A stretch of 64,000 bases of DNA from Gammaproteobacteria bacterium. Lineage in GTDB: Bacteria > Pseudomonadota > Gammaproteobacteria > Thiohalomonadales > Thiohalomonadaceae. The translations under genes were made by a program, and so were the position numbers. How positions within the stretch are numbered: position 1 is the stretch's first letter; every line of letters begins with the position of its first letter. The notes beneath the pieces were generated by a model. It was not told the origin of the DNA, ran no database searches, and saw only the letters and a program-made list of their open reading frames with translations. Below are positions 18,670 through 34,972 of this stretch, in pieces. The stretch is from assembly GCA_026196575.1 (NCBI GenBank), contig JAPHSX010000006.1:1-64000 (forward strand), written 5' to 3'.

Positions 18670-20284
18670 CTCCCGCGTCAGTTACGACGAGGCGCTGGCC
18701 GCCTACCGGCCACTGGCCGAGCGTCCGCTGCAGGAGCAGCACGACGATGTCGATGCCCTGCTGCGCGCCTACCACCCCGACTACCGCGCCGACACCATGA
18801 CCACCCTCAAGGTCGGCCCCAACAGCGGCGAGCCGTGCCACCGCCAGCTGGCCGAGGTGTTGCAGGCCGATGCCCGCATCGACGATGCCGACCTGGCCGG
18901 CGGCGCCATCGTCGAGACCGATGTGCTGGTGATCGGTGGCGGTGGTGCCGGTTGCGCCGCCGCCCTGGTGGCCGCGGTGGCGGGGGCGAAGGTGATCCTC
19001 GCCACCAAACTGCGCCTCGGTGACAGCAATACGGTGATGGCCGAGGGGGGGATCCAAGCCTCCATCGACAAGAGCGACACCCCGCAGATGCACTATGACG
19101 ACACCCTCAGGGCGGGCCATCACCTGGGCGAGAAGAGACTGGTGTCGCAGATGGTGATGGACGGCCCCGATGTCATCCGCTGGCTGATTCAGCAGGGGAT
19201 GCAATTCGACATGGACGAGTTTGGCGACCTGCTCACCCGCCGCGCCGGTGGCACCTCGGCCAACCGCGTCTGCTTCTACCGCGACTACACCGGACTGGAG
19301 ATGATGCGCGTGCTGCGCGAGGCGGTGCAGAACAGCGACGCCGAGGTGTGGGAATACAGTCCGGTGGTGGAGCTGATGATCAACGAGGCGGGCCACTGCG
19401 CCGGGGCGGTGATCTCCAACCTCAAGGATTGCCGCTATGTGCAGATCATCGCCAAGAGCGTGATCATCGCCACCGGCGGCATCGGCCGCATGCACTTGAA
19501 CGGCTTCCCCACCTCCAACCACTTCGGCGCCACCGGCGACGGGCTGGTGCTGGCCTACCGCCTGGGGGCCAAGCTGCGCGACCTTGACTCATTCCAGTAC
19601 CACCCCACCGGCCTAGCCCACCCGCACCACCTGGCCGGCACCCTCATTACCGAGGGGGTGCGCTCGGCCGGCACTTGGCTGCTCAACGGCAAGGGCGAGC
19701 GTTTCGTCGATGAGCTCAAACCACGTGACGTAGTGGCCGCCGCCATTCTCAAGGAGTGTGCCGAGGGGCGTGGTGTGCAGACCAGTGACGGGGGACAAGG
19801 GGTATGGCTCGACACCCCCGGCCTGGAGCTGCGTAATCCCGGCATTCTGAAACAGCGCTTTCCCAAGCTGCTGCACTTGGGGAAAAAGGCCGGTATCGAT
19901 CCCCACATCTCGCCGCTTCTCATCTACCCCACCCTGCACTACCAGAACGGCGGCGTCGCCATTAGCGAACACGGCGAGACCACGGTGCCGGGGCTCTATT
20001 GCGTGGGTGAGGCGAGCGGCGGCATTCACGGCAGAAACCGTATCATGGGCAACGCCCTGCTGGAGATCATCAGCTTTGGTCGCCGCGCCGGCGCCCATGC
20101 CGCCGAGCGCCGTCATGGCAAGGGGCACAAGCGCACCTCCATCGACCACCTCAGCCGCCTGCGCCGCGAACTCACCATCTCCGACATGCCGATGGAGCAG
20201 AAGAGCCCGATGCTCTTCCCCTCCTGCGCCAAATTCGACACCGACGTGGACTACGAGGGTCTGCGCCGCAACCGGCGCAAGTAA
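18662..20284 (+). CDS. Fumarate reductase/succinate dehydrogenase-type flavoprotein (FrdA-like)
   Basis: 540 residues of the FrdA/SdhA/NadB superfamily. After an N-terminal extension of about 85 residues comes the FAD dinucleotide fold (DVLVIGGGGAGCAAALVAA), then SNTVMAEGGIQAS, the active-site region QYHPTGLAHPHHLAG, ERFVDELKPRDVVAAAI with the Arg expected to act as the catalytic acid, and GLYCVGEASGGIHGRNRIMG near the C-terminus. There is no Tat signal and no membrane-anchor gene (sdhC/D type) beside it, so the complex should be soluble. With the overlapping iron-sulfur gene and the NuoF-like gene downstream it suggests an NAD(P)H-linked reductase; fumarate as substrate is inference. Confidence 0.82.
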   Translation: MSNSRVSYDEALAAYRPLAERPLQEQHDDVDALLRAYHPDYRADTMTTLKVGPNSGEPCHRQLAEVLQADARIDDADLAGGAIVETDVLVIGGGGAGCAAALVAAVAGAKVILATKLRLGDSNTVMAEGGIQASIDKSDTPQMHYDDTLRAGHHLGEKRLVSQMVMDGPDVIRWLIQQGMQFDMDEFGDLLTRRAGGTSANRVCFYRDYTGLEMMRVLREAVQNSDAEVWEYSPVVELMINEAGHCAGAVISNLKDCRYVQIIAKSVIIATGGIGRMHLNGFPTSNHFGATGDGLVLAYRLGAKLRDLDSFQYHPTGLAHPHHLAGTLITEGVRSAGTWLLNGKGERFVDELKPRDVVAAAILKECAEGRGVQTSDGGQGVWLDTPGLELRNPGILKQRFPKLLHLGKKAGIDPHISPLLIYPTLHYQNGGVAISEHGETTVPGLYCVGEASGGIHGRNRIMGNALLEIISFGRRAGAHAAERRHGKGHKRTSIDHLSRLRRELTISDMPMEQKSPMLFPSCAKFDTDVDYEGLRRNRRK

Positions 20285-20339
20285 GAAGCTAAATCGAGAG
20301 TTGCATAAGTACACTATGACCGTTTAAACGGACTGAAAC

Positions 20340-20437
20340 TCCCCCCCCTGAGGGGGAGGGTTGGGGAGAGGGGATCGAATACATTGCGCCTCCCTCTCCC
20401 CTGCCCTCTCCCTGATGGGGAGGGGGTGTGGCGTATA
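20340..20437. repeat. G/C-tract inverted repeat between the flavoprotein and NuoF-like genes
   Basis: Left arm GGGGGAGGGTTGGGGAGAGG and right arm CCTCTCCCCTGCCCTCTCCC are imperfect inverted copies. This looks like a dispersed palindromic (REP-type) repeat and could fold as a hairpin in the operon transcript. The rest of the 194-bp gap shows nothing. Confidence 0.6.
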
Positions 20438-20478
20438 CGATGTGCATAAAAACTAACATCAAAGGTTTAAGGTATTAG

Positions 20479-21726
20479 ATGAGCCAACTCAACCAAGTCC
20501 TGTTACACGAGCAGAGCCGTGTCGGCGCTGACCTCGACGCCTGGCTGGCCACCATTGGTGGTCAGGGACTGACCAGGGCGTTGGCAGAGCCGGCGGCGCT
20601 CATCCCCCTCATCGAAGAGGCCGGGCTGCGCGGCCTTGGCGGCAGCGGCTACCCCACCTTCAAAAAGTGGCAGTTCGTCGCCACGCAACCCAACGCGCAG
20701 GACAAATACCTCATCTGCAACGGCAACGAGGATGAACCCGGCACCTTCAAGGATCGCCTGCTGCTACAGGAGGCACCGCACCAGGTAATCGAGGGGGCCT
20801 GTATCACCGCCCTGGCCTGCAACATCAACCGCATCATCTTCTACATCAACCCCGACCAGAAGTCCTCACTGGCGGTGATGGAACAGGCGGTGCAACAGTG
20901 GCGTGAATCGCAGTGGTTTGTTGCCATAGAGAAGGCCTTGGGAAAGGAGCTGGAGCTGACGGTACGCCCCAGCTCCGGCCACTACATCGGTGGCGAGGAG
21001 ACCGCCGCCATCGAGAGCGTCGAGGGCAAATTTCCCTTCCCGCGCGGCAAGCCCCCCTTCCCCGCCGAGTTCGGCGTGTTCGGCAAGCCGACCCTGATTA
21101 ACAACATGGAGACTCTCTCCAACGTCTCGCACATCGTACGCCACGGCGCCCAGTGGTATCGTGACCTCGGGCTGGGGAGTTCACACGGTACCAAGATCTA
21201 CTGCCTCAGCGGCGACGTCCTCTACCCCGGCGCCTATGAACTGCCGATGGGCACACCGTTATCCACCCTCATCTACGAATATGGCGGCGGCATGTTACTG
21301 GAGAAGCAACTCAAGGCGGTCTTCACCGGCGGCCCCTCCAACACCATCCTCACGCCGAAGGATCTCGATGTACCGCTCGACTACGACTCGGTGCGCGAGC
21401 GCGACTCCAGCCTCGGCACCGGGGCGATGATCGTGATCTCCGAGGGAACCGGCATCGTCAAGCGAGTGGCGGAGTATGTGAACTTCTTCGCCCACTCCTC
21501 CTGCGGCCAGTGCCCCTCGTGCAAGAATGGCACCTTCTACGCCGCGCAACTGCTCACCCGCATCGACACCGGCCGCGGCAGCCGCGCAGACCTCTACGCC
21601 CTGATGAACCTCTGCCAGATGCTACCCGGCAGCGGCCGCTGCCACATGCTCGACGGCGCGCTCAAGGTACTGCAAAGCTCGCTGCACCATTTTATGGACG
21701 AGTATGAAGAGGCGGTGAACCGGTAG
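20479..21726 (+). CDS. NuoF-like NADH-binding flavoprotein subunit
   Basis: 415 residues of the 51-kDa complex I / HoxF / FdsB family, which carries NADH, FMN and one 4Fe-4S cluster. The FMN/NADH fold has GLRGLGGSGYPTFKKW, ICNGNEDEPGTFKDR and SGHYIGGEETAAIESVEG; the cluster ligands are SCGQCPSCKNGT plus a later cysteine (LMNLCQML). It is not the complex I subunit of the nuo operon at the right end of the window, being a lone gene with no NuoE partner. Position and strand tie it to the two upstream genes, where it would feed electrons from, or return them to, NAD(H). AAGG lies 6 nt before the ATG. Confidence 0.85.
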   Translation: MSQLNQVLLHEQSRVGADLDAWLATIGGQGLTRALAEPAALIPLIEEAGLRGLGGSGYPTFKKWQFVATQPNAQDKYLICNGNEDEPGTFKDRLLLQEAPHQVIEGACITALACNINRIIFYINPDQKSSLAVMEQAVQQWRESQWFVAIEKALGKELELTVRPSSGHYIGGEETAAIESVEGKFPFPRGKPPFPAEFGVFGKPTLINNMETLSNVSHIVRHGAQWYRDLGLGSSHGTKIYCLSGDVLYPGAYELPMGTPLSTLIYEYGGGMLLEKQLKAVFTGGPSNTILTPKDLDVPLDYDSVRERDSSLGTGAMIVISEGTGIVKRVAEYVNFFAHSSCGQCPSCKNGTFYAAQLLTRIDTGRGSRADLYALMNLCQMLPGSGRCHMLDGALKVLQSSLHHFMDEYEEAVNR

Positions 21727-21833
21727 CCATCTAGAAGCGGCCGGCAGACTGAACCCGTTAACTGGCGTGGACAATTTGTGGACAGGTGGCACAGAAAACA
21801 AAAACGGTGATTAGCCTAACCTGTTGTTTTATA

Positions 21834-21891
21834 TGGTGCCCGGAGCCGGGGTCGAACCGGCAAGGTGTTGCCACCGAGGGATTTTAAGTCC
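21834..21891 (-). pseudogene. 3' half of the host tRNA-Leu(UAA), cut at the anticodon loop
   Basis: Minus-strand sequence from the anticodon loop to CCA: GGACTTAAAATCC, variable arm, T arm (GGTTCGACC) and acceptor strand TCCGGGC-ACCA. It cannot fold alone. Its acceptor strand pairs perfectly with GCCCGGA at the 5' end of the fragment at 30019-30060. Joining the two across the shared 13-bp core restores an 87-nt tRNA-Leu with anticodon TAA and an AGGGA/TCCCT anticodon stem. The break is the left end of the integrated element. Confidence 0.92.
21879..21891. repeat. attL core of the element
   Basis: GGATTTTAAGTCC, identical to attR at 30019-30031. It equals the anticodon loop and flanking stem bases of the target tRNA-Leu. 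Confidence 0.85.
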
Positions 21892-21996
21892 ATACCGCCC
21901 ACCCTGAACTATTTTTAAGTAGCACTTACAGTTGCTATATTTCAGTAACTTACCTATATTTAGTCCCTAGTGTGTATGCAGAGTTTTTAATAAACC

Positions 21997-22013
21997 TGCT
22001 ACCTATTTGCTAC
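21997..22013. promoter_or_regulatory. Paired TGCTAC repeat, candidate integrase arm-type site (left end)
   Basis: TGCTAC-CTATT-TGCTAC: two direct copies with an 11-bp period, about 25 nt before the integrase start. The identical 17-mer occurs inverted at 26854-26870, and a TGCTAC-ATAAC-TGCTAC pair lies at the right end. Repeats one helical turn apart near both att cores are typical of arm-type binding sites. Confidence 0.6.
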
Positions 22014-22036
22014 AAATTCCACCCGAGGGACTGAGC

Positions 22037-23308
22037 ATGGGTAAGTTGAAACTGAGCAAAACGACCGTGGAGAAGCTGCAGCCGGTTGAGGGCGTGCAGG
22101 CGATTTACTGGGACCAGGACATCACGGGATTTGGGGTCCGCGTATCCCCCGGCGGATCGCGCTCCTTCTTCTATCAGGGGCGGCTAAACGGCATGGCCAA
22201 GAAGATCACCATCGGCAAGTTAGGGCGCATTACTGCCGAGACGGCACGCAAGGAGGCCAAGCGGATCGCCTCCATGCTGGAGCTGGGGCAAGACCCGACA
22301 CGAAAGAAGGAAGGCAAGACCACCGGCTCGACCTTTGGCGACCTGCTCGAAGCCTATGTGGAACTGCTGGAGTCGCAGGGTAAGCTATCCGCCAAGGCCG
22401 TAAGCAACGCGATCAAAAAGGACGTAGAAACCGCCTTCCCCAAGTTGTGGAAGAAAGCCGCCAACGCGATCACGCTGGACGATTGCATGGACATCGTGGG
22501 CAGGCTCAAGGATGAGGGGAAGAGCCGGCAGGCCGACAAGATCCGCAGCTATATCAGAACGGCCTTCTCCGAGGCGATAAACGCCCGTGGTGACGTGAAT
22601 ATGCCCGCGTCCATGCGCAAGCTGGGGATCACATTCAACCCGGCGCGAGACATGCGCAAGGTGAAGGGCTCCAGCAACGCCAAAGACCGGGCGCTATCGC
22701 TGGCAGAGTTCCGGGCCTACTGGAAGCACACCCAAGAGCTACCCGAGCCCAAGCGGTCCTTGGCCCTACTCCACGTCCTGACTGGCGGACAACGCCAGCA
22801 ACAGCTTGCCCGTGTCACCCTGGCCGACATAGACCGGGATGCCCCTTCCCTGACGATATGGGATAGCAAGGGCCGACGTGCTGAACCACGGCGGCACGTG
22901 GTCCCCCTGCTCCCTGTCGCCCTAGACGCCATCGACGAGATCACCGGGGGCGGGGAATTCGTCTTTTCTTGTGATGGCGGCAAATCGCCGATCCACATTG
23001 CATACCTCAATGACCTTACAAAGGCGACATGCCAGAAGATGCAGGACGCCGGGGAGCTGGAGGGCGCACCGTTCACCGCTGGCACCATCCGCGCCACCAT
23101 CGAGACGCGGTTGATCGCCAAGCCCTACAGCGTGACCTCTGACGTTCTGGCGCATCTTCTCAGCCACGGGATGGGCGGCATCCAGCAGCGCCACTACCAA
23201 CACCACGACTTTTTCGACGAGAAGCTGGACGCCCTGCAGAAGCTCCACGGGATGCTGACGCAACCGAGGGGAAAGGTGACGGCGATCCGCGGGAGGAAGC
23301 AGGCATGA
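22037..23308 (+). CDS. int: Tyrosine-recombinase integrase of the satellite element
   Basis: 423 residues. The N-terminal arm-binding domain (DUF4102-like; TTVEKLQPVEGVQAIYWDQD, then FGVRVSPGGSRSFFYQGRL) is followed by a core-binding domain (about 100-215) and the catalytic domain with R253 (TGGQRQQQ), R352 (TIRAT), H377 (LLSHG) and the nucleophile Y387 (RHYQHH). The usual H of the HxxR box is G349 here. The ATG at 22037 is chosen for the GAGGG about 8 nt upstream; the longest frame begins at 22007 inside the arm sites. It lies next to attL and should cut in the anticodon loop of tRNA-Leu. Its stop overlaps the next start (ATGA). Confidence 0.93.
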   Translation: MGKLKLSKTTVEKLQPVEGVQAIYWDQDITGFGVRVSPGGSRSFFYQGRLNGMAKKITIGKLGRITAETARKEAKRIASMLELGQDPTRKKEGKTTGSTFGDLLEAYVELLESQGKLSAKAVSNAIKKDVETAFPKLWKKAANAITLDDCMDIVGRLKDEGKSRQADKIRSYIRTAFSEAINARGDVNMPASMRKLGITFNPARDMRKVKGSSNAKDRALSLAEFRAYWKHTQELPEPKRSLALLHVLTGGQRQQQLARVTLADIDRDAPSLTIWDSKGRRAEPRRHVVPLLPVALDAIDEITGGGEFVFSCDGGKSPIHIAYLNDLTKATCQKMQDAGELEGAPFTAGTIRATIETRLIAKPYSVTSDVLAHLLSHGMGGIQQRHYQHHDFFDEKLDALQKLHGMLTQPRGKVTAIRGRKQA

Positions 23309-23868
23309 AAACCAGGCTGATCGACTTTTTCCGAATGAATGCCCCCGACCGAGATCCAGAAGAATTAGCATCGTCGGTCTTGGGTGTCGTTGAACATGAA
23401 AAGAAAGCGGACGCGGCAAAGAGGCGTGAGGAGGAAGCTATCAACAAGGCGCTGAGAAAGATCAGCCAAGCCATAACCGAGTTAGAAAAAGTCGATGGTC
23501 AACGGGTAAAGCACCTGCTCAATAATTTGCGCCATGCGCAATATGAGGCGGGAGACCCCAGCAAAAATTACATGGTAAAAAGCAGATATATTTCCATACC
23601 GGGTCCCGACTTCAATTCGCCAAGAGTAATTGCGTCCGAGGTAAAGCCAAGGGCGAAAAATGCAAAGCTGATATTCGCACTGGAAGGATTTTGGCTCCGA
23701 ACCTTCCGAGAGCGCCCAAGCGAATGGCGCGACCATAAATTCTTCGAGTTAGCGGCGATTGTTTGCTCTGGAACAAAAGACCGTGACGCAAATGCAGATA
23801 GTCTATATCAGCAGCGAAAACGTGTGGCGAAGCCACTAGCACCTGATGGGAACAAAGGGAACAAATAA
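23305..23868 (+). CDS. Hypothetical protein behind the integrase
   Basis: 187 residues, not recognised. The first 70 or so residues are highly charged and probably helical (EHEKKADAAKRREEEAINKA); the middle has a hydrophobic, aromatic core (FALEGFWLRTFRERPSEW); the C-terminal tail is basic. The start codon overlaps the integrase stop by 4 nt, so it is translated with it. A/T-richer than the host genes. No signal peptide or membrane segment. Confidence 0.75.
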   Translation: MKTRLIDFFRMNAPDRDPEELASSVLGVVEHEKKADAAKRREEEAINKALRKISQAITELEKVDGQRVKHLLNNLRHAQYEAGDPSKNYMVKSRYISIPGPDFNSPRVIASEVKPRAKNAKLIFALEGFWLRTFRERPSEWRDHKFFELAAIVCSGTKDRDANADSLYQQRKRVAKPLAPDGNKGNK

Positions 23869-23914
23869 GACAAAATTTTTCGTTCTTTTTGTGACCTATA
23901 GCAAACCCTAATAA

Positions 23915-23958
23915 ATCGGATTCTACCCCTGTCAATCACGAACAGCGGAGAATCCGAT
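23915..23958. promoter_or_regulatory. Inverted repeat abutting the AlpA-like start codon
   Basis: Perfect 10-bp arms ATCGGATTCT (23915-23924) and AGAATCCGAT (23949-23958), 24-nt spacer. The right arm touches the ATG at 23959 and covers the ribosome-binding region. It could be an operator for an autoregulator or an RNA hairpin that hides the start. Confidence 0.6.
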
Positions 23959-24210
23959 ATGCAAACCCATACCACCCCCACCGGGAACACCGTTCCCCCC
24001 GAGGCTGTTGTCTCACTCCCGCGCCTTCTCACTCAGAAGGATCTTGCTGCCTACCTTAACAAAAGCACGGCATGGTGCGAGCGCGCCCGCTGGGCAGGCG
24101 AAGGCCCGCGTTTCGTTAAGCTGGGGCGCCATGTTCGATACCGTGCCGACGATGTGCTGGCGTGGATCGAAGAGAACGCGAAGCGCTCAACTAGCGAGGT
24201 GGCGCAATGA
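23959..24210 (+). CDS. AlpA/excisionase-type helix-turn-helix regulator
   Basis: 83 residues with an HTH_17-type winged helix: LLTQKDLAAYLNKSTAWCER, then GPRFVKLGRHVRYRADDVLAWIEE, the fold of AlpA and excisionase proteins. In P4-like and PICI satellites AlpA homologues switch on the excision or replication module. It is separated from the integrase pair by a 90-bp gap with the inverted repeat above, so it begins a second transcription unit. Overlaps the next gene by 4 nt. Confidence 0.85.
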   Translation: MQTHTTPTGNTVPPEAVVSLPRLLTQKDLAAYLNKSTAWCERARWAGEGPRFVKLGRHVRYRADDVLAWIEENAKRSTSEVAQ

Positions 24211-24401
24211 ACCCCGCCGAATGGATCACGCCTTCTGCCGCCGTCGTTGAGTACGGCATCCCTATCGAAACCCTTGGGCTGTACATTCAAGGCGGCCAGT
24301 TCCGAACCTCCGTCGTTGTCGGGAGGGTTGTCATATGCCGCGCAGACGTCGCCGCCCTGGCTCTGAAAATGCGTGCCGGACTGTGTGGGGGGTGCGAATG
24401 A
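24207..24401 (+). CDS. Small HTH-like protein
   Basis: 64 residues, MNPAEWITPSAAVVEYGIPI at the start. The pattern (WITPSAAVVEYGIPIETLGLY, then FRTSVVVGRVVICRADVAAL) resembles a degenerate HTH_17 winged helix, and the C-terminal tail ends in CGGCE. ATGA overlaps couple it to the gene on each side. Possibly a second excisionase-like protein; not assigned. Confidence 0.6.
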   Translation: MNPAEWITPSAAVVEYGIPIETLGLYIQGGQFRTSVVVGRVVICRADVAALALKMRAGLCGGCE

Positions 24402-24577
24402 TGATCCCCCAAAAAAGAACAGCCGCCCGGGCAGGCGGCAATTCAAACAACACACGCCAAGAGTATAGCGCTTTTTTCGATTCAATCACAGAGATCAAGG
24501 CCGATCTTATCGCCGTCGTGTTCGCCGTTGCTGCCAGTATTTTTGCGACGCTGATCGCACTGGGGATGATGCTATGA
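24398..24577 (+). CDS. Small single-pass membrane protein
   Basis: 59 residues. Positively charged, Asn/Gln-rich N-terminal half (QKRTAARAGGNSNNTRQEYS) and one C-terminal transmembrane helix (ADLIAVVFAVAASIFATLIA). GGGGGG precedes the ATG pair at 24398/24401. Overlaps both neighbours by 4 nt. Function unknown; in an element this compact a small membrane protein could affect phage or host membranes, but this is speculation. Confidence 0.6.
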   Translation: MMIPQKRTAARAGGNSNNTRQEYSAFFDSITEIKADLIAVVFAVAASIFATLIALGMML

Positions 24578-24978
24578 ATATTGAAAACATTCTAAGCCGC
24601 CTCGCCAAAGTGAAACCCAACGGTGCAGAAAAGTGGATCGCATGTTGCCCGGCGCACGATGACCGCTCCCCGAGTCTATCAATCCGCGATGCTGGCGACC
24701 GCGTTCTGTTGCACTGTTTTGCAGGCTGTGAAACCGGCGATGTGCTGGCCGCTGCTGGCCTTTCGTGGGGCGACGTAATGCCACCTACCAGCGAACAGGC
24801 GAGAGCCGCTTACAGGCGCTCTAGGGACGCCGCAAAGCTACGTCGTGCGTTAGAGCACGAGGAGCTGATCCTAGCGATCGCAGCGTGGCGAACAGACCCG
24901 CTAGAAGACGAAGACTTAGAACGCATTCGCCTCGCCGAAAAACGGATCGAGAAAATTCGGGGGGTGTTGCATGACTAG
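24574..24978 (+). CDS. CHC2 zinc-finger (DnaG/primase-type) protein
   Basis: 134 residues. The N-terminal zinc ribbon is a primase CHC2 finger: CCPAHDDRSPSLSIRDAGDR followed by LLHCFAGC. The rest is a charged helical tail without TOPRIM or helicase motifs, so this is only the DNA-recognition part of a primase. It starts 4 nt inside the previous gene and overlaps the next by 8 nt; with the DUF3987 protein it forms the likely replication module. Confidence 0.85.
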   Translation: MNIENILSRLAKVKPNGAEKWIACCPAHDDRSPSLSIRDAGDRVLLHCFAGCETGDVLAAAGLSWGDVMPPTSEQARAAYRRSRDAAKLRRALEHEELILAIAAWRTDPLEDEDLERIRLAEKRIEKIRGVLHD

Positions 24979-26530
24979 TATCACATCACCCATTGATAGG
25001 CTAGACGAAGATCAAAGTTATGTTGATTCACTCCCAGAGCCGCTGGAACTTAAGACACCCGCCGATCTCTTTCGTGGCCGTTCTGTTCCTGCGTTTCCGC
25101 TGGAAGCATTACCGGAGGCATTCGCCATCTACGCGAAGGAGCACAGCGAGCAATCAGGCTTCGACCCCGGCGCGTATGGCTTCGCCCTGCTGCTGTCTGC
25201 GTCCAACCTTATCAACCATAAAGGCCGCATGACGATAACCGATTCATGGCGCGTTCCTGCGTTTCAATGGGGCGCTGTAGTCGATGATTCCGGGGCCGGT
25301 AAGTCGCCTGTATTGTCTGCCAGCACTTCGGCTTCAGATGCCATTTATGAGCGCATCGAAGACGAATCAGCAAAAGCCTATGCTCAATGGAAAATAATTG
25401 TCGACAATTTAGCAAAAAACGAAACAGCACCACCAAAACCGGCATGGCGACAACGCCAAGCGATGAACACCACCGTCGAGGCATTATCGGCGCTGCTGGC
25501 AGACAATCCGGAAGGGGTGAATCTCAAAGTTGATGAGATGACCGAACTTCTCGGACGGATGGACGCCTACAGCAGTGACGGCGGTATGGATCGCGCTGCG
25601 TATCTCACTGCGTACAACGGCGACCGCCTCACCATTAACCGCAAGGGCACAGGCGCGAATCCTCCCCCGCCTGTTGTTATCGAGCGGTTTTCAGTCGGCA
25701 TCCTGACAGGTATTCAGCCCGAGAAACTGGCGGCGATGTTCAAGAAGTCTAGCGGTAGTGCTGATGGCCTGTTGCAGCGATTCATCCTCTACAGTTTCGC
25801 GCCTGCTGGAGATGTTGATTTTATGGCCGAGCTTGGCAGGAACACTGATAGCAACTGTCATGCGATATTCAATAACATAACCGTCCACAATGATGTGCAA
25901 CTGAATTGCACGCTACGACCAGAGGCCAAGCGGGAATTTCAAGAGTACGTCAACTTCACCCGCAAGCTGGCGACTCGCACGGCAGGCGCACGGATGAGGG
26001 AGCATATCAACAAGTACCCCGGCTTCCTGGCCCGACTGACTCACGCGCTACACCGTATCGAGGCAGCGGCGGTAGGGCGCGAGCCAAGGCCAATGGTGGA
26101 GCTGGAAACGGTACTGCGTGCCAAGGCCATCATGGCGTGCCTATACCGGCACTCAGAAGCCATCTATGAAGTGCTGGACTCCACTACCGGCAATGTCCGC
26201 GATCTGGTCAAGAGCGCAGCTGAGGCAGTTCTCAGCAAAGGCTGGGAAACCTTCCAACGTGGTGACCTAACCCGGAATGCAACTCACTGGCAGGGGGCAG
26301 ACTCACGCGAGGCAGAAAACGCACTGGATCTGCTCATAGAAATGTCATGGATTGAGGACGCGACACCACCACGCCTACCAGGGCAGCGGGGCCGCCGTTC
26401 TGATGGGCGGTTCAATGTTCATCCTGGCGTACATTCGCTATTCAGTGAGCAAACCCAGAGGATTAAGCACAACCGGGAAGAGCGGTTCAAGGCGATACAG
26501 GCTATCGCATCATCAAGGGAGCGCAATTAG
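24971..26530 (+). CDS. DUF3987-type protein (replication module)
   Basis: 519 residues resembling the DUF3987 family, large proteins that follow primase fragments in prophages and satellites. A Walker-A-like loop VDDSGAGKSPVL is at about residues 103-115; a later region reads VDEMTELLGRMDAYSSDGGM (acidic, DE box) and PPPVVIERFSVGILTGIQPE; the C-terminal region (KGWETFQRGDLTRNATHW) looks like a winged-helix. This fits an ATPase or helicase acting with the CHC2 protein, but no biochemical role is established for the family. Last gene of the replication block. Confidence 0.78.
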   Translation: MTSITSPIDRLDEDQSYVDSLPEPLELKTPADLFRGRSVPAFPLEALPEAFAIYAKEHSEQSGFDPGAYGFALLLSASNLINHKGRMTITDSWRVPAFQWGAVVDDSGAGKSPVLSASTSASDAIYERIEDESAKAYAQWKIIVDNLAKNETAPPKPAWRQRQAMNTTVEALSALLADNPEGVNLKVDEMTELLGRMDAYSSDGGMDRAAYLTAYNGDRLTINRKGTGANPPPPVVIERFSVGILTGIQPEKLAAMFKKSSGSADGLLQRFILYSFAPAGDVDFMAELGRNTDSNCHAIFNNITVHNDVQLNCTLRPEAKREFQEYVNFTRKLATRTAGARMREHINKYPGFLARLTHALHRIEAAAVGREPRPMVELETVLRAKAIMACLYRHSEAIYEVLDSTTGNVRDLVKSAAEAVLSKGWETFQRGDLTRNATHWQGADSREAENALDLLIEMSWIEDATPPRLPGQRGRRSDGRFNVHPGVHSLFSEQTQRIKHNREERFKAIQAIASSRERN

Positions 26531-26620
26531 TTGGATTAATTGTATGCGCGTGCGAGACATTAAGTTCTTACCCCTAAATTAAATTCTCTACTTCTCGTAC
26601 GCACATACAACTTTTCCAAC
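26531..26620. repeat. 27-bp imperfect inverted repeat (large stem-loop) after the DUF3987 gene
   Basis: Left arm includes TTGTATGCGCGTGCGAGA (26540-26557); right arm TCTCGTACGCACATACAA (26593-26610). These 18 nt are inverted with two mismatches, and outer bases (TTGGA/TCCAA) extend the stem. The loop of about 36 nt is A/T-rich. It begins directly after the stop. Candidates are a replication origin, a packaging (pac/cos) signal, or a structured RNA. The rest of the gap to 26897 shows no supported gene. Confidence 0.65.
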
Positions 26621-26853
26621 TTAATACCACCACCCAAGGTGCCGGTGAAGGATGAGAATCAGCCACGCAGAACACAACCCTGGCGATCTGGCGGAAAGGC
26701 CAGCCGCGAACAGCCGCAAATATAGACCCCGTACCCTCCCGCCATCGAGCAGAAACACGGCGGCAGCAGGCATACATGAGGGATATAATATCCCCGTGCT
26801 ATTCGTTCAAAGCCCCATGCCATTGCGGCCTGTGGCTGATGACGCCTAAACTT

Positions 26854-26870
26854 GTAGCAAATAGGTAGCA
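26854..26870. promoter_or_regulatory. Inverted internal copy of the TGCTAC pair
   Basis: GTAGCAAATAGGTAGCA is the exact reverse complement of the 17-mer at 21997-22013. It lies 27 nt before the terminase small-subunit start, so the same protein (probably the integrase) may bind in front of the packaging genes. Confidence 0.55.
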
Positions 26871-26897
26871 GTTACCCAGTGGATAGGCAGCGATTAA

Positions 26898-27296
26898 ATG
26901 GACAGCAAACCAAAGACCGGCAGGAAGAAGAAGGCCGATAGAGTACCGGCGAAATTTGAACCGGGCTTCATTGCCGCGCTGGACGGTCGAACCGGTATCG
27001 CCCAGGAGATGCGCGAGAGATTCCAAGAGCTGACCCGCGACCTTGGCGGCGCTGACTCCTTGAGCTACCAGCAGCGCAGCCTATGCGAGCGCGTGTTATG
27101 GCTGGAGCACTGGATCAGGGTTCAGGAAGCGGCCCTTGCCCGTGGCGACAATGCCGCGTTTGACGTAGGCCGCTACACCCAGGCCGCCAACTCAATCCAA
27201 GGGCTCTATGCAAAGCTGGGCCTGCAGCGGCAAGCGCGAGACGTTCCCACCTTGGGCGAGTTCATCCGCTCGAAGCAGGGAGCCCCGCAGCAATGA
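26898..27296 (+). CDS. Putative terminase small subunit
   Basis: 132 residues. Basic N-terminus (KPKTGRKKKADRVPAKFEPG), helical middle with SLSYQQRSLCERVLWLEHWI and a short C-terminal tail. It is assigned by position directly before the large terminase (4-nt overlap) and by composition, typical of a small DNA-binding subunit that selects the packaging site. Sequence alone is not decisive. Confidence 0.6.
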   Translation: MDSKPKTGRKKKADRVPAKFEPGFIAALDGRTGIAQEMRERFQELTRDLGGADSLSYQQRSLCERVLWLEHWIRVQEAALARGDNAAFDVGRYTQAANSIQGLYAKLGLQRQARDVPTLGEFIRSKQGAPQQ

Positions 27297-28699
27297 GCCC
27301 GATCAGCATCCGTGATGTGACCACCGACCCGCAGCTATTCGGCGGCATGTTTGGCGGCAAGAGCTGGGCCGCCTGGCGTGCGCTCCTCTTCGGCTTTTTC
27401 GGCCTGACCCTGACCGATGACGAGGCCGAACTGTTTAAGGCCATCACAGGGCGCGAGGCGCTGCCCCTGTGGCCGATGGATGAGCTCTGGCTGGTAGTCG
27501 GGAGACGTGGCGGCAAGAGCCAAAACGCGGCACTACTGGCGGTCTTCCTTGCCGCGCTCCATGACTATACCGACCGCCTAAGCCCTGGCGAGGTGGCAAC
27601 CGTGATGGTCTTGGCCGCTGACCGCAAACAGGCCCGCGCCGTCTTCCGGTATGTCTCCGGCCTTCTGCATAGCAACCCGATGTTGGAGCGGCTGATCGTG
27701 CGCGAAGACAAGGAGACCATCGAGCTTAGCAACCGCACCGTTATAGAGATCAGCACCGCATCATTTCGCAGTGTACGCGGCTACACATTGGCCGCCGTTA
27801 TCGCTGATGAAATTGCCTTCTGGCGCAGCGAAGACAGCGCCAACCCCGATTATGAAATTATCAACGCGCTACGCCCGGCCATGGCAACGCTCGACGGCAA
27901 ATTGATTGCACTGTCCAGCCCCTACGCAAAGCGCGGCGAACTGTGGGAAAACTACCGCCGCTATTTCGGCAAGGAAGATAGATCGATCCTTGTGGCCCAG
28001 GCCGACAGCATGACCATGAATCCCAAGCTACCGCCCCGAGTTGTGGCCGCAGCGATGGAACGCGATCAGGCTGCAGCCCTGGCCGAGTACATGGCCCAGT
28101 TCCGATCCGACCTCGAAGCGTTCGTGACCCGTGAGGCGGTCGAAGCGTGCGTGGTGCCTGGCCGGTATGAGCTGCCCAACCTATCGACGAACCGTTACCG
28201 CGCCTTTGTCGATCCGTCTGGCGGTTCAGCGGATAGCATGACCCTTGCCATTGCCCATGAAGAGCGCAGAGACAAGCAAACGATCACCGTGATCGACGCG
28301 GTGCGCGAGGTCAAGCCGCCATTCTCCCCTGAAGCCGTGGTAACTGATTTTTGTGCGCTGTTGAAGGGCTATCGGATCTCAACCGTGACAGGCGACAGGT
28401 ACGGCGGCGAATGGTGCCGGGAGCCCTTCAAGAAGCAGGGCATCAAGTACGAGCTATCCGCCAAGCCGCGATCCGACCTCTACCGGGACATGCTGCCGCT
28501 GATTAACAGCGGACAGATTGAACTACTCGACCACGACAAGACCGTGAATCAGCTTTGCAGCCTGGAACGCAGGACAGCCCGCAGCGGCAAGGACAGCATC
28601 GACCATGCCCCCGGCGCTCACGATGACATTGCAAACAGCGTGGCAGGCGTAGCGGCCAACCGCATCGGCCATGTCTGGGATTACAAGTCGCTTTTATAA
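27293..28699 (+). CDS. Phage terminase large subunit
   Basis: 468 residues with the two-domain layout of packaging motors. ATPase domain: Walker A GRRGGKSQ (K75) and Walker B VIADEIAFW (D172, E173), with a coupling SSPYAKRGELW motif. The C-terminal RNase-H-like nuclease shows FVDPSGGSADSM, TGDRYGGEW and GAHDDIANSVAG acidic sites. All catalytic residues appear intact. No portal, protease or capsid gene follows, unusual for a phage but expected in a satellite that redirects a helper's capsids. Confidence 0.9.
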   Translation: MSPISIRDVTTDPQLFGGMFGGKSWAAWRALLFGFFGLTLTDDEAELFKAITGREALPLWPMDELWLVVGRRGGKSQNAALLAVFLAALHDYTDRLSPGEVATVMVLAADRKQARAVFRYVSGLLHSNPMLERLIVREDKETIELSNRTVIEISTASFRSVRGYTLAAVIADEIAFWRSEDSANPDYEIINALRPAMATLDGKLIALSSPYAKRGELWENYRRYFGKEDRSILVAQADSMTMNPKLPPRVVAAAMERDQAAALAEYMAQFRSDLEAFVTREAVEACVVPGRYELPNLSTNRYRAFVDPSGGSADSMTLAIAHEERRDKQTITVIDAVREVKPPFSPEAVVTDFCALLKGYRISTVTGDRYGGEWCREPFKKQGIKYELSAKPRSDLYRDMLPLINSGQIELLDHDKTVNQLCSLERRTARSGKDSIDHAPGAHDDIANSVAGVAANRIGHVWDYKSLL

Positions 28700-28734
28700 C
28701 CACCCCAACCACCGACACAAAGGAGCACGACACC

Positions 28735-29481
28735 ATGAACGCTTACCACACCGCCGCACAGGCCGCACAGGCCGCTTTGAGCACCGCCCATGCCGATGCA
28801 CTGGCCGACACCCAAGCCCGGCTGCAGCACGCCACCGGGGCCGCCAGCGCCGATGCAATCCGCCCCCGCCTGCTTGATATGCTGGAACATGCCGAGACGC
28901 CCGCCGCTGACACTGTGACCAGTATGCTCAGCACTTACGCGGCCATGTTCGCCCCGCACTTGCAGCGTGACGGCGAGATGATGATCCGCTCGCTCCGCTC
29001 GATGAAGAAGCAGCAGGGCCTCACCGATGCGCAATGTTCCGCTGTTGCGGGCAGTCTGTTGGCCTGCATCCACGGCAAAGCCCCCAGCGGCCTGATCAAG
29101 TTTCCCGCCCCTACTGCGTGGCACTTCAATATATCCCTTGCCGACCTGCACCAGTTGGCCGGATGGGTAGTCCCCGATGCCCATGCAGAACTGCAGGCCG
29201 AGCTGGACGAGCTCACCGGCGAGCGGTTCAAGGCAGAGCGCGACCTCGCCCGACTGGAGGCACACAAGCAGGCGCTCGACAAGCTGGCCGCCGCACTGAA
29301 GACAAGCCCCTCCAACGTGATGCGCATCCGCAGCAATGCACCCAACCGGCAGAGCGTAGCGGGCGTGTTTTTCGAGCCTGGCGAAGTGCGCGAACTGACC
29401 CCGGCAGAGTACGGCGAGATTGCCGACCATGCCGGATACCGCCGCATGATCAGCGCCGGGCAACTGGAGGTGCAGCCGTGA
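28735..29481 (+). CDS. Hypothetical protein downstream of the terminase
   Basis: 248 residues, not recognised. Alanine-rich helical N-terminus (AAQAAQAALSTAHADALADT), a middle with SMKKQQGLTDAQCSAVAGSL, a coiled-coil-like segment (LQAELDELTGERFKAERDLA) at about 160-200, and a C-terminal domain ending in GYRRMISAGQLEVQP. Good ribosome-binding site (aaaggag). It might be a scaffold, capsid-size or packaging factor given its place, but nothing in the sequence proves it. Confidence 0.7.
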   Translation: MNAYHTAAQAAQAALSTAHADALADTQARLQHATGAASADAIRPRLLDMLEHAETPAADTVTSMLSTYAAMFAPHLQRDGEMMIRSLRSMKKQQGLTDAQCSAVAGSLLACIHGKAPSGLIKFPAPTAWHFNISLADLHQLAGWVVPDAHAELQAELDELTGERFKAERDLARLEAHKQALDKLAAALKTSPSNVMRIRSNAPNRQSVAGVFFEPGEVRELTPAEYGEIADHAGYRRMISAGQLEVQP

Positions 29482-29711
29482 GCCGGGAGATCACCGATGC
29501 AGAATTAGAAGCAGCACGACGCCGGGGCGATTCCCCGGCCGAGTATGCAAACCAAAAAGGCGGCATGGGGCGCCACCACCTGGATCCGGCCAACCCGATG
29601 CACCGCTTCATTGCCGAGCACCAGACGTACCATGCACCCCCGTGCCACTCGCAGCAGGAGCCGCGGGGCCGCCTTGGAGTGCTGGCCCTGCTCGCCAATC
29701 GGGAGATTTAA
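29478..29711 (+). CDS. Small hypothetical protein, last gene of the satellite
   Basis: 77 residues from a GTG that overlaps the previous stop (GTGA). Charged start (SREITDAELEAARRRGDSPA) and a His/Pro-rich middle (MHRFIAEHQTYHAPPCHSQQ). Not recognised. A terminator follows about 100 nt later. Confidence 0.55.
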   Translation: MSREITDAELEAARRRGDSPAEYANQKGGMGRHHLDPANPMHRFIAEHQTYHAPPCHSQQEPRGRLGVLALLANREI

Positions 29712-29813
29712 GGATTTACCAGCGGTATAGGGTTTGGTGGCCCACGGTCCCGCTGGTAATAGGTAGCTGATGCACCTGGCGTGTGACTCCTTCACGCCGA
29801 AGCATTAGCACTA

Positions 29814-29844
29814 GACCCTACCCTCGCGGTGGGGTCTTTTTTTT
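29814..29844 (+). terminator. Terminator of the satellite operon
   Basis: GACCCTACC-CTCGC-GGTGGGGTC followed by eight T. It lies just before the convergent carried tRNA-Leu and separates the two units. Confidence 0.85.
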
Positions 29845-29847
29845 GTT

Positions 29848-29936
29848 TGGTGCCTCGGGCCGGAGTCGAACCGGCACAACCGTTTCCAGTTGGCGGATTT
29901 TAAGTCCGCTGCGTCTACCAATTTCGCCACCGAGGC
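29848..29936 (-). tRNA. tRNA-Leu(UAA) carried by the satellite (replacement copy)
   Basis: Complete 89-nt class II tRNA with encoded CCA. Acceptor GCCTCGG/CCGAGGC, anticodon stem GCGGA/TCCGC with loop CTTAAAA (anticodon TAA), T arm GGTTCGACTCC. It is clearly diverged from the broken host tRNA-Leu in acceptor stem, anticodon stem and variable arm, so it came with the element. It should read UUA/UUG codons in place of the split gene. No second tRNA-Leu(UAA) is in the window. Confidence 0.95.
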
Positions 29937-29941
29937 GTGAC

Positions 29942-29958
29942 TGCTACATAACTGCTAC
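29942..29958. promoter_or_regulatory. Paired TGCTAC repeat, candidate arm-type site (right end)
   Basis: TGCTAC-ATAAC-TGCTAC, the same 11-bp period as the left pair, only 5 nt upstream of the carried tRNA-Leu. It overlaps where the tRNA promoter must lie, so integrase binding could affect tRNA expression. Confidence 0.6.
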
Positions 29959-30018
29959 ATATTTTTTCAATATCAGCCTAACTTATTGGTTTCATTGCAT
30001 ATTAATCCAATACAAGAC

Positions 30019-30060
30019 GGATTTTAAGTCCCTTGCGTATACCAATTTCGCCATCCGGGC
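30019..30060 (-). pseudogene. 5' half of the host tRNA-Leu(UAA), cut at the anticodon loop
   Basis: Minus strand: GCCCGGA acceptor strand, D arm (GGCGAAATTGGTATACGC) and anticodon arm up to ACTTAAAATCC. It completes the 3' half at 21834-21891. The first 13 bases on the plus strand (30019-30031) are the attR core. The promoter of the old tRNA should still be present to its right. Confidence 0.92.
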
Positions 30061-30325
30061 CTTTTGGATGGGGCCATAATTTTACCCTAGCAAGCGCAGA
30101 GTTTCAGCTAAAAACAATGTCACGGCAGGGCAAGATCGCACTACAAAAAGCAAGGTTATTGCATTGGGTGGGAGGGGGTACATACAAAAGCAGGAGGTTA
30201 AGCCGCATGGCAACGACGAGAAGGGAGCAATTGGGTTTATGGGTCGATCAATTTACCTAGGTGGTTGAGTGGGTGTAAAAATGATCAAATGGGCGAATAT
30301 CTGTTTTGCCTAGAGTTACGCTCAC
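30061..30325. other. Non-coding stretch between the satellite and an IS remnant
   Basis: No supported gene. A good ribosome-binding site (aggagg) precedes an 18-codon frame at 30206 that stops before the transposase remnant; this may be debris from another insertion. Confidence 0.4.
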
Positions 30326-31275
30326 ATGAGTTTCCTCAAACATTTCGCCGATTCACCCGACCCGCGCTCGCACATCAATCTTAAACATGAATTGCTGGAT
30401 GTGGTTTTCTTGTGCGTTTGTGCGGTGCTTTCGGGTGCCGAAGGATGGATGGACATCAAAAAGTTCGGTGACGAGAAGCTGAATTGGTTGAGAAAATTCC
30501 GGCGCTTCGAGCACGGGATCCCGGCCGATGACAGCATCGCGCGCATTATCGGTGCGGTGGATCCACATAAAATGAATGCGTGCTTTGTCGACTGGGTCAA
30601 TGAGATCCGCAGCCAGGCAGGCGGCATCAATTCATCGCGATCGACGGCAAGACCTTCCGCCACAGCCATGATGCCCAACCCAGTGATGCACTGCACTCGA
30701 TCACGGTGTGGTTGCGCGAGCAGGGGCTGGTTTTCTGCCAAAGCAAGTCCGAGGGGAAGAAGAACGAAATCAAGAGGGTGCAGTCACTCATCGACACATT
30801 GGAACTGACCGATACGACCGTCACCCTCGATGCCATGCACTGCCAGAAGGCCACCGCGAAGTTGCTGCGCCGGCGCGAAGCGCAGTACGTATTGTGTGTG
30901 AAGGACAATCAGAAGGGGCTGCGCGAGGAGCTGCAGTGGTGGTTTGAGGGTTTTGAGGGCAACTGGCCGCTAGGGGCCAGTACCTTCGAGCAGACTGATG
31001 CTGGCCACGGCAGGGTGGAGATCCGCCGCTATGTCCAGCTGCCCCTTGTCGAACAGATCACCCACGCCAACAGCTGGGAGGGGCACGTAGCATCGTGCGT
31101 GTCGAACGCGAACGACACATCGGTGAGAAAGTCACCATGGAGACGGTGTACTACATCAGCTCCCACGAGCCGAACGTGGCCTTCATCGCCGAGGCGATCC
31201 GTTCGCACTGTGAGGTGGAAAACAAAGCCCATTGGGTGCTGGATGTCGTGTACATGGAGAACAACAGCCGCATCA
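30326..31275 (+). pseudogene. ISAs1-family transposase, frameshifted and truncated
   Basis: Frame 1 gives the N-terminal part (FADSPDPRSHINLKHELLDV). Near 30625 the reading frame shifts; the continuation holds the catalytic region IAIDGKTFRHSHDAQ and DAMHCQKATAKLL. A second shift near 31085 is needed to reach the C-terminal HWVLDVVYMENNSRI, and the sequence then stops matching, so the end is lost. Three pieces cover most of a DDE transposase of this family. It lies 30 bp from the end of fur. Dead copy. Confidence 0.85.
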
Positions 31276-31304
31276 TTTGTCTAGGAGCCTCTCGGCGCGC
31301 AACT

Positions 31305-31733
31305 TCAGTCGGCCGCCTGTTGCCCCCGGCACTCGGCACAAATCCCGAAGAGGGTGAGACTGTGGTCGGTGATAACAAAACCGTGTTTGGTGGCGATCTC
31401 CTGCTGGCGCTTTTCGATCACCTCGTCGACAAACTCATCCACCCGGCCGCACTTCACGCAGAGAATGTGATCGTGGTGGTGGCCTTCGTTGAGCTCGAAT
31501 ACCGCATGCCCCCCCTCGAAGTTGTGACGGGTGACCAGGCCCGCCGTCTCGAACTGGGTGAGCACGCGATAGACGGTGGCAAGGCCGATATCCTCATCGT
31601 GGTCTAACAGTACCTTGTAGACATCCTCGGCGCTCATGTGGCGCTGCTCCTCGCTGTTCGCGAGGATCTCCAGGATTTTCAGGCGTGGGAGGGTGGCCTT
31701 GAGGCCCGCCTGTTTCAATTCCTTAGTCGACAT
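31305..31733 (-). CDS. fur: Ferric uptake regulator Fur
   Basis: 142-residue iron-responsive repressor. N-terminal winged helix (MSTKELKQAGLKATLPRLKI), dimer domain with the histidine-rich metal site (EGHHHDHILCVKCGRVDEF) and a second CxxC (ICAEC). All standard Fur metal ligands are present. The start at 31733 matches the family; the longer frame adds 16 unrelated residues. Divergent from bamE with 71 bp between the starts, the usual fur-bamE arrangement in gammaproteobacteria. Confidence 0.96.
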   Translation of the reverse strand: MSTKELKQAGLKATLPRLKILEILANSEEQRHMSAEDVYKVLLDHDEDIGLATVYRVLTQFETAGLVTRHNFEGGHAVFELNEGHHHDHILCVKCGRVDEFVDEVIEKRQQEIATKHGFVITDHSLTLFGICAECRGQQAAD

Positions 31734-31804
31734 ATCGATTGCGTTTCTCACAGCACGGTGGCTTGGGGTATCATGACGCAAACAGTAACCCGCAAGCAGA
31801 ACAA

Positions 31805-32152
31805 ATGCAAAAGATTCTCATTACCCTTACCCTCCTCTCCCTGATGCTGACCGGGTGCGCCCACAAGATCGAGATCCAGCAGGGCAATGTGGTCACCCAG
31901 TCGCAGCTGGAGCAGCTACACCCCGGCCTGGATCAACGACAGGTACGCGCCCTGTTGGGCAGCCCCTTGCTCAACGATCCCTTCCACCCCGATCGCTGGG
32001 ATTACTACTACAGCAAAAGCAGGGGACTGGAACCGCTGGAGCGCTACCGTCTGACCCTCTTCTTCAGCGGCGACACTCTGTTGCGCTTTGAGAGAGAGGG
32101 GGCATTCCCGAGTGAGGAGTACCAGCGGCCAGAGGAAAAATCACGCCGCTAA
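31805..32152 (+). CDS. bamE: Outer membrane assembly lipoprotein BamE (OmlA/SmpA)
   Basis: 115 residues. Lipoprotein signal with lipobox LTGC (LTLLSLMLTGCAHKIEIQQG), then the BamE fold: VVTQSQLEQLHPGLDQRQVR and LLGSPLLNDPFHPDRWDYYY. It is anchored in the inner leaflet of the outer membrane and helps BamD/BamA insert beta-barrel proteins. Faces rnfH convergently. Confidence 0.95.
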   Translation: MQKILITLTLLSLMLTGCAHKIEIQQGNVVTQSQLEQLHPGLDQRQVRALLGSPLLNDPFHPDRWDYYYSKSRGLEPLERYRLTLFFSGDTLLRFEREGAFPSEEYQRPEEKSRR

Positions 32153-32171
32153 CCGCAGCAGGGCGTCGTAA

Positions 32172-32507
32172 CTACCCTTCCTCCTCGGGAGCGGCATCGC
32201 CACCGCCCCTGCTCATCTTCTTCCCCTCGGCGGCACGCTGCTGGCGCACTGCCTTGGGGTCGGCGATCAGCGGCCGGTAGATCTCGATGCGATCCCTGGC
32301 CCGCACCGTGGCATCGAGCTTGCTCAACTTGCTGAAGATCCCGACCTTGCTGGTGGCCAGATCAATCTCGGGAAACTGTGCCAGCAGGCCGGAGCGCTCG
32401 ATCACCTGAGCCAGCGTCATCCCCTCCTCCGCCTCGATACTCAGCAGCATCTGCTGTCCAGGTTTGGCGTAGGCCACCTCGACCAGAAAGGTTTCACGCC
32501 TTGCCAT
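32172..32507 (-). CDS. rnfH: RnfH-family ubiquitin-like protein
   Basis: 111 residues from the ATG at 32507, which lies inside the end of ratA (overlap 14 nt). The beta-grasp fold is recognisable: FLVEVAYAKPGQQMLLSIEA, then VGIFSKLSKLDATVRARDRI and EIYRPLIADPKAVRQQRA. The family (UPF0125) is always coupled with ratA; its biochemical role is unclear. The C-terminal tail is charged and low-complexity. Confidence 0.9.
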   Translation of the reverse strand: MARRETFLVEVAYAKPGQQMLLSIEAEEGMTLAQVIERSGLLAQFPEIDLATSKVGIFSKLSKLDATVRARDRIEIYRPLIADPKAVRQQRAAEGKKMSRGGGDAAPEEEG

Positions 32508-32931
32508 AGACATCCACCGCACGTTTGGAGAAGGCATCCACCAGGCTGTTGGCGATCTGGCTGAAGATCGGTCCCATCGCCATGCCCACCAGCCGGTTAT
32601 TGAATTCAAACTCCAGATCCAGCGACACCTTGCACGCCTGTTCACCCAGCACATCAAAGCGCCAGAACCCATCTAACCGTTTGAACGGTCCCTCCTCCAG
32701 GCGCATCTCGATCATCTTGTCGCGCTGCAGGCGATTGCGGGTGGTAAAGGATTTATGCAGGCTACCGTGGGCGATCTCCACCGTAGCGCGAATCACATCC
32801 TCATCGCGTGAGAGAACCTTGCTGCTGCGGCACCAGGGCAGAAAGGTGGCATAGGCGTCAACATCATTGACCAGGGCATACATCTGCGCGGCGCTGTAGG
32901 CGACCAGCGCGCTTTTGTTAATCGTTGTCAC
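32494..32931 (-). CDS. ratA: RatA/COQ10-like START-domain protein
   Basis: 145 residues of the polyketide-cyclase/START superfamily: INKSALVAYSAAQMYALVND at the N-terminus, VKVSLDLEFEFNNRLVG-type strand and a C-terminal helix (SQIANSLVDAFSKRA). In E. coli the homologue was described as a ribosome association toxin; in mitochondria the relative Coq10 binds ubiquinone. Conserved next to smpB and rnfH, so a housekeeping role is more likely than a toxin-antitoxin pair. Confidence 0.92.
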   Translation of the reverse strand: MTTINKSALVAYSAAQMYALVNDVDAYATFLPWCRSSKVLSRDEDVIRATVEIAHGSLHKSFTTRNRLQRDKMIEMRLEEGPFKRLDGFWRFDVLGEQACKVSLDLEFEFNNRLVGMAMGPIFSQIANSLVDAFSKRAVDVYGKA

Positions 32932-32953
32932 AACGGCTCCGGGTAAAAAGGGA

Positions 32954-34357: not shown

Positions 34358-34464
34358 CGTTCATCCCCCTTTCTTTGAATTTGCACCATTGTCGGCCAAT
34401 TCCGCCCGCCCCTCAAGCCGGGGAAAATCACACGCGCCACTGTCTCTTCACGCACGCTATCCCC

Positions 34465-34470
34465 TATAAT
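34465..34470 (+). promoter_or_regulatory. -10 box of smpB, suggesting a leaderless message
   Basis: A consensus TATAAT ends 9 nt before the smpB ATG (34480), so transcription would begin at or within a few bases of the start codon. No Shine-Dalgarno is present. The -35 region is weak. Confidence 0.5.
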
Positions 34471-34479
34471 GGCCCAACT

Positions 34480-34962: not shown

Positions 34963-34972
34963 CTATTTTCGG

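Follow-up and report, generated by a model that had tools for sequence, protein, structure and literature searches.

The 64,000-nucleotide stretch described here (positions 1 to 64,000 of contig JAPHSX010000006.1 in the draft assembly GCA_026196575.1 of a gammaproteobacterium from the family Thiohalomonadaceae), hereafter the window, contains an 8.14-kb element that interrupts the host gene for the leucine transfer RNA (tRNA) with anticodon UAA, tRNA-Leu(UAA), and brings along a complete tRNA-Leu(UAA) gene of its own. Judged from sequence, it is very probably an integrated phage-satellite-like element that uses tRNA-dependent integration. The evidence for this reading consists of the broken host gene, the core shared by both junctions, the carried gene as the only complete one of its anticodon, the conservation of the arrangement in six elements and the empty sites in relatives.

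A tRNA-Leu gene broken in its anticodon loop

The element is bounded by two copies of a 13-bp core, GGATTTTAAGTCC, with a spacing of 8140 bp. The core coincides with the anticodon stem-loop of the host gene, which lies on the minus strand and is interrupted within the anticodon loop. When the flanks are joined at the core, ARAGORN recognises an 87-nt tRNA-Leu(UAA) with a fully paired acceptor stem, and the joined halves are 95% identical to the intact tRNA-Leu(UAA) of four relatives. Neither the left attachment site (attL) nor the right one (attR) alone gives a tRNA with ARAGORN in the window. A third copy of the core, at 29895, forms the anticodon arm of the carried tRNA. The loop sequence GACTTAAAATC has just three occurrences in the 2.74-Mb assembly, every one at this locus, and five further elements show the same layout, so the arrangement is not due to chance. 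The original prediction for this DNA had placed both halves and the 13-bp core, had recognised the separate complete tRNA-Leu(UAA) and had held the host gene to be truly broken at the anticodon; the ARAGORN results on the joined flanks, the element and the two junctions confirm each of these points. Its background assumption, that elements targeting tRNA genes mostly insert at the 3′ end, has to be corrected, since the anticodon loop is a common integration sub-site and 2083 of the 3919 Islander islands are anticodon-centred (PMC4383910). What is unusual here is that the tRNA is not rebuilt, rather than that the anticodon loop is targeted.

The assembly (2.74 Mb, 74 contigs, completeness 100) yields 38 tRNA matches. 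ARAGORN finds one gene each for the leucine anticodons CAA, UAG, CAG and GAG, and the sole complete tRNA-Leu(UAA) is the element's own, with which a search of the assembly using the carried tRNA agrees. The tRNA survey that had been proposed for this genome accordingly gives no second intact tRNA-Leu(UAA) in the draft assembly.

A scan of a genome collection with the integrase of the element retrieved relatives in Sedimenticola hydrogenitrophicus (L083, 91%) and Halomonas salipaludis (L084, 65%), and a search of 250 Halomonas-family genomes added three more (L167 in G534, L165 in G537 and L166 in G621). These five related elements, with integrases 65–91% identical, reside in S. hydrogenitrophicus and four Halomonadaceae; L165 and L166 count as one lineage because their integrases are 99% identical. 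The order is the same in all six elements, running from the host 5′ half through the core, 81–83 bp, a complete co-directional tRNA-Leu and the element genes to the integrase and the host 3′ half, with a core-to-core length of 8.1–11.1 kb. In every case the joined halves form a tRNA, and ARAGORN finds no tRNA-Leu at attL or attR. The carried anticodon equals that of the broken gene in 6/6 elements: L083 breaks a tRNA-Leu(CAA) and carries a tRNA-Leu(CAA), and the other five do the same with UAA. Neither S. hydrogenitrophicus nor H. salipaludis has a complete gene of the anticodon in question besides the carried one. The loop sequence ACTTAAAAT is confined to the element in G534, and G537 and G621 hold 54 other ACTTAAAAT sites, none of them a tRNA-Leu, in a test that presupposes the usual A31–U39 pair. 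As far as the draft assemblies show, the broken gene has no complete counterpart of its anticodon other than the carried one.

Four Halomonas-family genomes possess an intact tRNA-Leu(UAA) that is 100% identical to the joined halves of L084. It follows tRNA-Gly and tRNA-Cys, the flanking sequence is the same as in L084 and L167, and, on a reading of the open reading frames (ORFs), the neighbouring genes resemble pgsA and nadB. Such empty sites are direct evidence of the proposed insertion into one gene. A same-genus relative of the window organism (G001) likewise has an intact tRNA-Leu(UAA) after tRNA-Gly and tRNA-Cys, 95% identical to the joined halves, and its flanks are not syntenic with those of the window beyond the tRNA and its upstream region. 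A comparison with element-free relatives had been suggested for this locus, and the gene is indeed intact in them.

To the right of the element, remnants of a DDE_Tnp_1-family transposase (30326-31284) adjoin the host tRNA 5′ half. Contig C32 (G000:C32:1-196, L038), which bears the tRNA-Gly and tRNA-Cys found beside this gene in relatives, ends in a 95% identical piece of these remnants, so that the Gly-Cys-Leu cluster has been split either by rearrangement or by assembly. In G534, a second and more diverged tRNA-Leu 3′ fragment lies past the element (L167 18174-18229) and is probably the trace of an earlier insertion into the same gene.

Gene content and junction geometry

The features of the element and its junctions are collected in Table 1. 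The integrase retains the conserved residues R253, R352, H377 and Y387, and its Pfam Phage_integrase match (3e-4) is below the cut-off of that family. Within residues 346-354 of three aligned integrases, the usual HxxR motif reads GxIR (TAGxIRAT), with R253, H377 and Y387 retained. TerL matches Pfam TerL_ATPase at 7e-5, slightly under the cut-off. A fold search with the small helical protein gave no significant match, and several of its top viral hits were small terminases. No capsid, tail or lysis genes were detected in the 8.1-kb element by Pfam, PHROG and further family searches, and PADLOC reported no convincing defence gene. The element is thus small and integrative, and combines an integrase and an AlpA-like regulator with genes for replication and packaging but has no capsid set, as the term "satellite-like" in the original prediction had implied; its make-up suggests a phage satellite that would be packaged by a helper phage.

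Table 1. Features of the element, its attachment sites and the broken host gene in the window
Feature	Position	Strand	Evidence
Host tRNA-Leu(UAA) 3′ half, including attL core 21879-21891	21834-21891	-	Sequence, ARAGORN on joined flanks; agrees with the uninterrupted tRNA-Leu(UAA) gene in relatives
GTAGCAAATAGGTAGCA repeat pair on the attL side, probably an arm site of the integrase	21997-22013	-	Pattern search (chance expectation 0.01); position shared with related elements
Tyrosine integrase with N-terminal arm-binding domain	22037-23308	+	Pfam Arm-DNA-bind_3 4e-13; PHROG 1 integrase 2e-39
AlpA-like helix-turn-helix protein, probable excisionase/regulator	23959-24210	+	Pfam HTH_17 6e-10; PHROG 66 (excisionase and transcriptional regulator) 2e-9; in 6/6 elements
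Replication module: primase zinc-ribbon ORF (24574-24978) and DUF3987 helicase-like ORF (24971-26530)	24574-26530	+	Pfam Zn_ribbon_DnaG 2e-8, DUF3987 1e-40; PHROGs
Small helical protein in the position of the small terminase subunit	26898-27296	+	In 6/6 elements; AlphaFold pLDDT (predicted local distance difference test) 84.7
Terminase large subunit (TerL)	27293-28699	+	PHROG 2 5e-22; PDB profile match to TerL nuclease
Right-end ORF, no function assigned	28735-29481	+	No family match; 25-28% similar ORFs in the same place in L083 and L167
Terminator-like hairpin that would stop rightward element transcription ahead of the tRNA	29813-29844	+	Pattern scan
Complete replacement tRNA-Leu(UAA), 89 nt, CCA encoded	29848-29936	-	ARAGORN; Rfam RF00005 59 bits
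Repeat pair TATGTAGC-AGT-TATGTAGCA lying between the carried tRNA and the attR core, probably an arm site of the integrase	29942-29961	-	Pattern search, none expected by chance; kept in 6/6 elements
Host tRNA-Leu(UAA) 5′ half, including attR core 30019-30031	30019-30060	-	Sequence, ARAGORN on joined flanks
Promoter-like CTGAAA-17-TAAAAT ahead of the interrupted 5′ half, belonging to the host tRNA gene	30079-30107	-	Pattern scan; region conserved in same-genus relative G001

The genes common to the six elements are those for the integrase, the AlpA-like protein, the small helical protein and TerL. The replication genes vary: the window element has the zinc-ribbon and DUF3987 ORFs, L083 and L084 have DUF5906-type primases, and the remaining elements have others. 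The H. salipaludis element has a YafO-family toxin gene near its replacement tRNA (L084 19276-19692). Scans of viral contigs with the integrase, an integrase alignment and a TerL alignment gave no relatives, and the arm-repeat and arm-plus-tRNA patterns hit only unrelated viral contigs; in collections of phages and plasmids all matches were distant and none reached 60% identity. Around four distant integrase relatives (G076, G185, G293 and G011), the stretches fetched contain no complete tRNA gene.

All six elements have a paired repeat close to TATGTAGC-NN-TTATGTAGCA, 11–25 bp before the carried tRNA, and a similar pair on the attL side. These pairs are probably the arm sites of the integrase, which would put the carried tRNA just outside attP, the attachment site of the element. 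A third arm-like copy of GTAGCAAATAGGTAGCA (26854-26870, plus strand) lies directly before the ORF in the small-terminase position, also at the matching place of L083, and may be a regulatory site.

Within lineages, the carried tRNAs resemble each other (window and L083, 91%; L084 and L165, 89%) more than they resemble the genes they replace (71–80%). Hence the carried tRNAs belong to the element, and an origin as a recent copy of the host gene is rejected. Between the window and L083, the anticodon loop and the variable arm differ and the remainder is nearly identical, which points to a switch of the anticodon together with a switch of the target.

We propose that the tyrosine integrase recombines the short core of attP with the host tRNA-Leu(UAA) gene at its anticodon stem-loop. 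What the two share is too short a core for the gene to be rebuilt, and the host tRNA is therefore destroyed. The element carries a complete tRNA of the same anticodon, probably immediately outside the arm site of attP, and after integration this tRNA lies 83 bp past the core, co-directional with the broken host 5′ half. Transcription from the host tRNA promoter probably continues through the broken half into the carried tRNA, which would be freed by ordinary tRNA processing and charged. Pattern scans showed no promoter-like or terminator-like site on the minus strand from the 30079-30107 site to the carried tRNA, and because the host promoter-like site remains in place with nothing of the kind intervening, host-driven read-through is the simplest and the likeliest route of expression. 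A more far-reaching proposal, on which we are doubtful although it deserves mention, joins promoter capture with paired retargeting: the carried tRNA would have no strong promoter of its own and be expressed mainly after integration, behind the host tRNA promoter, and a lineage would go from UAA to CAA through joint changes in its attP core and in the anticodon loop of the tRNA that it carries.

Probable dependence of the host and alternative explanations

The codon UUA is decoded by tRNA-Leu(UAA) alone. It accounts for 24 of 14712 codons in the host ORFs and is present in 15 of the 39 long ones. While the element is integrated, a dependence of the cell on the carried tRNA is supported, and this tRNA would be essential; the replacement would allow the cell to survive integration and at the same time leave it dependent for as long as the integrated state lasts. 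The claim of the original prediction that the cell depends on the element's tRNA is supported for the integrated state, in which this is the only complete copy in the assembly, and the dependence would end with precise excision. The further claim, that the element is "hard to lose, an addiction mechanism", is only partly right and finds no support in this wording, since recombination between attL and attR would rebuild the host gene. Precise excision would restore an intact gene and is for this reason expected to be harmless, whereas the arrangement should punish deletion or decay of the element or loss of its tRNA. The relation is one of dependence, not of toxin-like addiction.

Several points weigh against this reading. 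At 1.6 per 1000 codons, UUA is a rare codon. Some other expected tRNAs are missing from the matches in the assembly, a draft that therefore has gaps, and one contig terminates inside a tRNA match. A second tRNA-Leu(UAA) might conceivably lie in such a gap. The dependence on L083 may be weaker, as tRNA-Leu(UAA) could read UUG by wobble. Finally, an insertion sequence lies right of ~30.3 kb, and the region may be rearranged.

That the complete tRNA is the host gene, rebuilt by sequence that an ordinary tRNA-targeting island brought in, with the far fragment as a displaced piece, would be the usual outcome (PMC4383910), and this form is in fact seen at the same gene in G074, in an element with a related terminase but a different integrase. 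In the window, however, the complete tRNA lies 83 bp past the crossover core with its own 5′ half and acceptor stem, and in 6/6 elements both host halves stay broken at the junctions. Since each host half finds its partner in the other half rather than in the carried gene, we reject a rebuilt tRNA as highly improbable. Joining of the host halves as RNA, in the manner of an intron or a split tRNA, would leave the host tRNA functional, and in some of the genomes searched the anticodon loop of tRNA-Leu(UAA) does hold a group I intron. But the observed introns measure roughly 0.2–0.3 kb, against halves that are 8–11 kb apart with a duplicated core and an integrase between them; Rfam gives no Intron_gpI match in window 20000-36000, and the empty sites are simple intact genes, on which grounds this explanation is rejected as having hardly any probability. 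In relatives, short insertions into the anticodon loop of tRNA-Leu(UAA) were seen at L151 (G010), L152 (G017), L153 (G020) and L154 (G051). Those of L153 and L154 are group I introns by Rfam, L152 has a sub-threshold match (41 bits, E 2e-8), and the longer interruption in L151 (~0.7 kb) has no Rfam match.

It is somewhat less improbable, though still unlikely, that the carried tRNA is kept mainly to supply the element with UUA decoding or to resist an anticodon nuclease of host or phage, with complementation as a by-product. UUA is somewhat commoner in the ORFs of the element (8 of 1846 codons) than in those of the host, a difference that rests on eight codons, and resistance to tRNA-degrading defence is discussed in PMC10865867. 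Neither purpose accounts well for a carried anticodon that tracks the broken gene, the CAA case included, or for a tRNA at a fixed distance from the attachment core in 6/6 elements. As for an assembly artefact or a decayed relic, the assembly is a draft, and contig C32 ends in an insertion sequence related to that at 30326, which might have led to misjoining of neighbouring contigs. The same layout in six separate assemblies of different species leads us to reject an artefact, and the integrase and TerL frames are open; we give this explanation next to no weight.

Relation to known systems and significance

Tycheposons, which the original prediction had cited as precedent, are not the nearest parallel to tRNA-dependent integration by the window element; tRNA-dependent lysogeny, shown by experiment in mycobacteriophages (Guerrero-Bustamante and Hatfull, mBio 2024, PMC10865867), is nearer. 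As in those actinobacteriophages, an arm-type tyrosine integrase uses a short core (13 bp here, 8–17 bp there) in a host tRNA gene, neither junction rebuilds the tRNA, a cognate tRNA of the same isotype, here of the same anticodon, is carried, and the target, here by the draft assemblies, is non-redundant. Close phage relatives there use different tRNA targets with matching tRNAs, as is the case here for UAA and CAA. The carriers in that study are, however, complete temperate phages of Actinobacteria, whereas here the carrier is an 8–11 kb element of Gammaproteobacteria with a terminase and no detected capsid genes. As the carrier is not a phage, we say that the system works like tRNA-dependent lysogeny, not that it is such. 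Phage Fionnbharth has its tRNA at a distance from attP, under a promoter demonstrated with a reporter, unlike the present tRNA, which abuts the arm site of attP behind the host tRNA promoter. The same study also mentions the Lactobacillus prophage Lj965.

The vTRX32-1-like phages of Rhizobium leguminosarum (PMC8631192) similarly interrupt a host tRNA-Leu gene at a 12-bp motif and carry a complete tRNA-Leu, but they are 42–45 kb long and their carried tRNA lacks the attachment motif, which the carried tRNAs of the window and L083 keep. A similar Sinorhizobium case has been mentioned (PMC11476347, PMC12429752). Classical islands and satellites share the tyrosine integrase and the anticodon-centred attachment site, but rebuild the tRNA at one junction (Islander, PMC4383910), which is not found in the window element. 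Tycheposons likewise associate a tyrosine recombinase with a complete tRNA gene; in a secondary account (PMC10872708) they differ in being large, tRNA-bordered cargo carriers of 4–200 kb, and the description there mentions no host tRNA broken in the anticodon loop. A literature search, which covered few subscription papers, did not find the arrangement in satellite-like elements and is weak evidence of novelty.

The related TerL element of G074 (L168), with a different integrase, sits in the same tRNA gene in the classical form, the tRNA being complete at one junction and the displaced 3′ half ~7.3 kb away. It follows that the replacement-tRNA strategy goes with the integrase module and not with the terminase backbone, and this classical cousin allows both strategies to be compared at one locus. 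At G387:C32:125328-127934, the tRNA-Leu(UAA) is intact and a displaced 3′ fragment lies 2.5 kb off, which is likely a small classical island at the same gene.

The tRNA-dependent strategy is known from whole phages, and what appears to be new is its use by six related and much smaller satellite-like elements. The 2024 study left open how frequent such integration is beyond actinobacteriophages (PMC10865867). The six elements, from two gammaproteobacterial groups, indicate that the strategy extends to small satellite-like elements, in which the junction geometry is fixed. With carried tRNAs that are 91% identical, the UAA/CAA pair offers a direct test of how the choice of target and the carried anticodon are coupled. 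For the host, the replacement tRNA would make integration itself survivable, and a gene of the core translation machinery can in this way be taken over by a mobile element.

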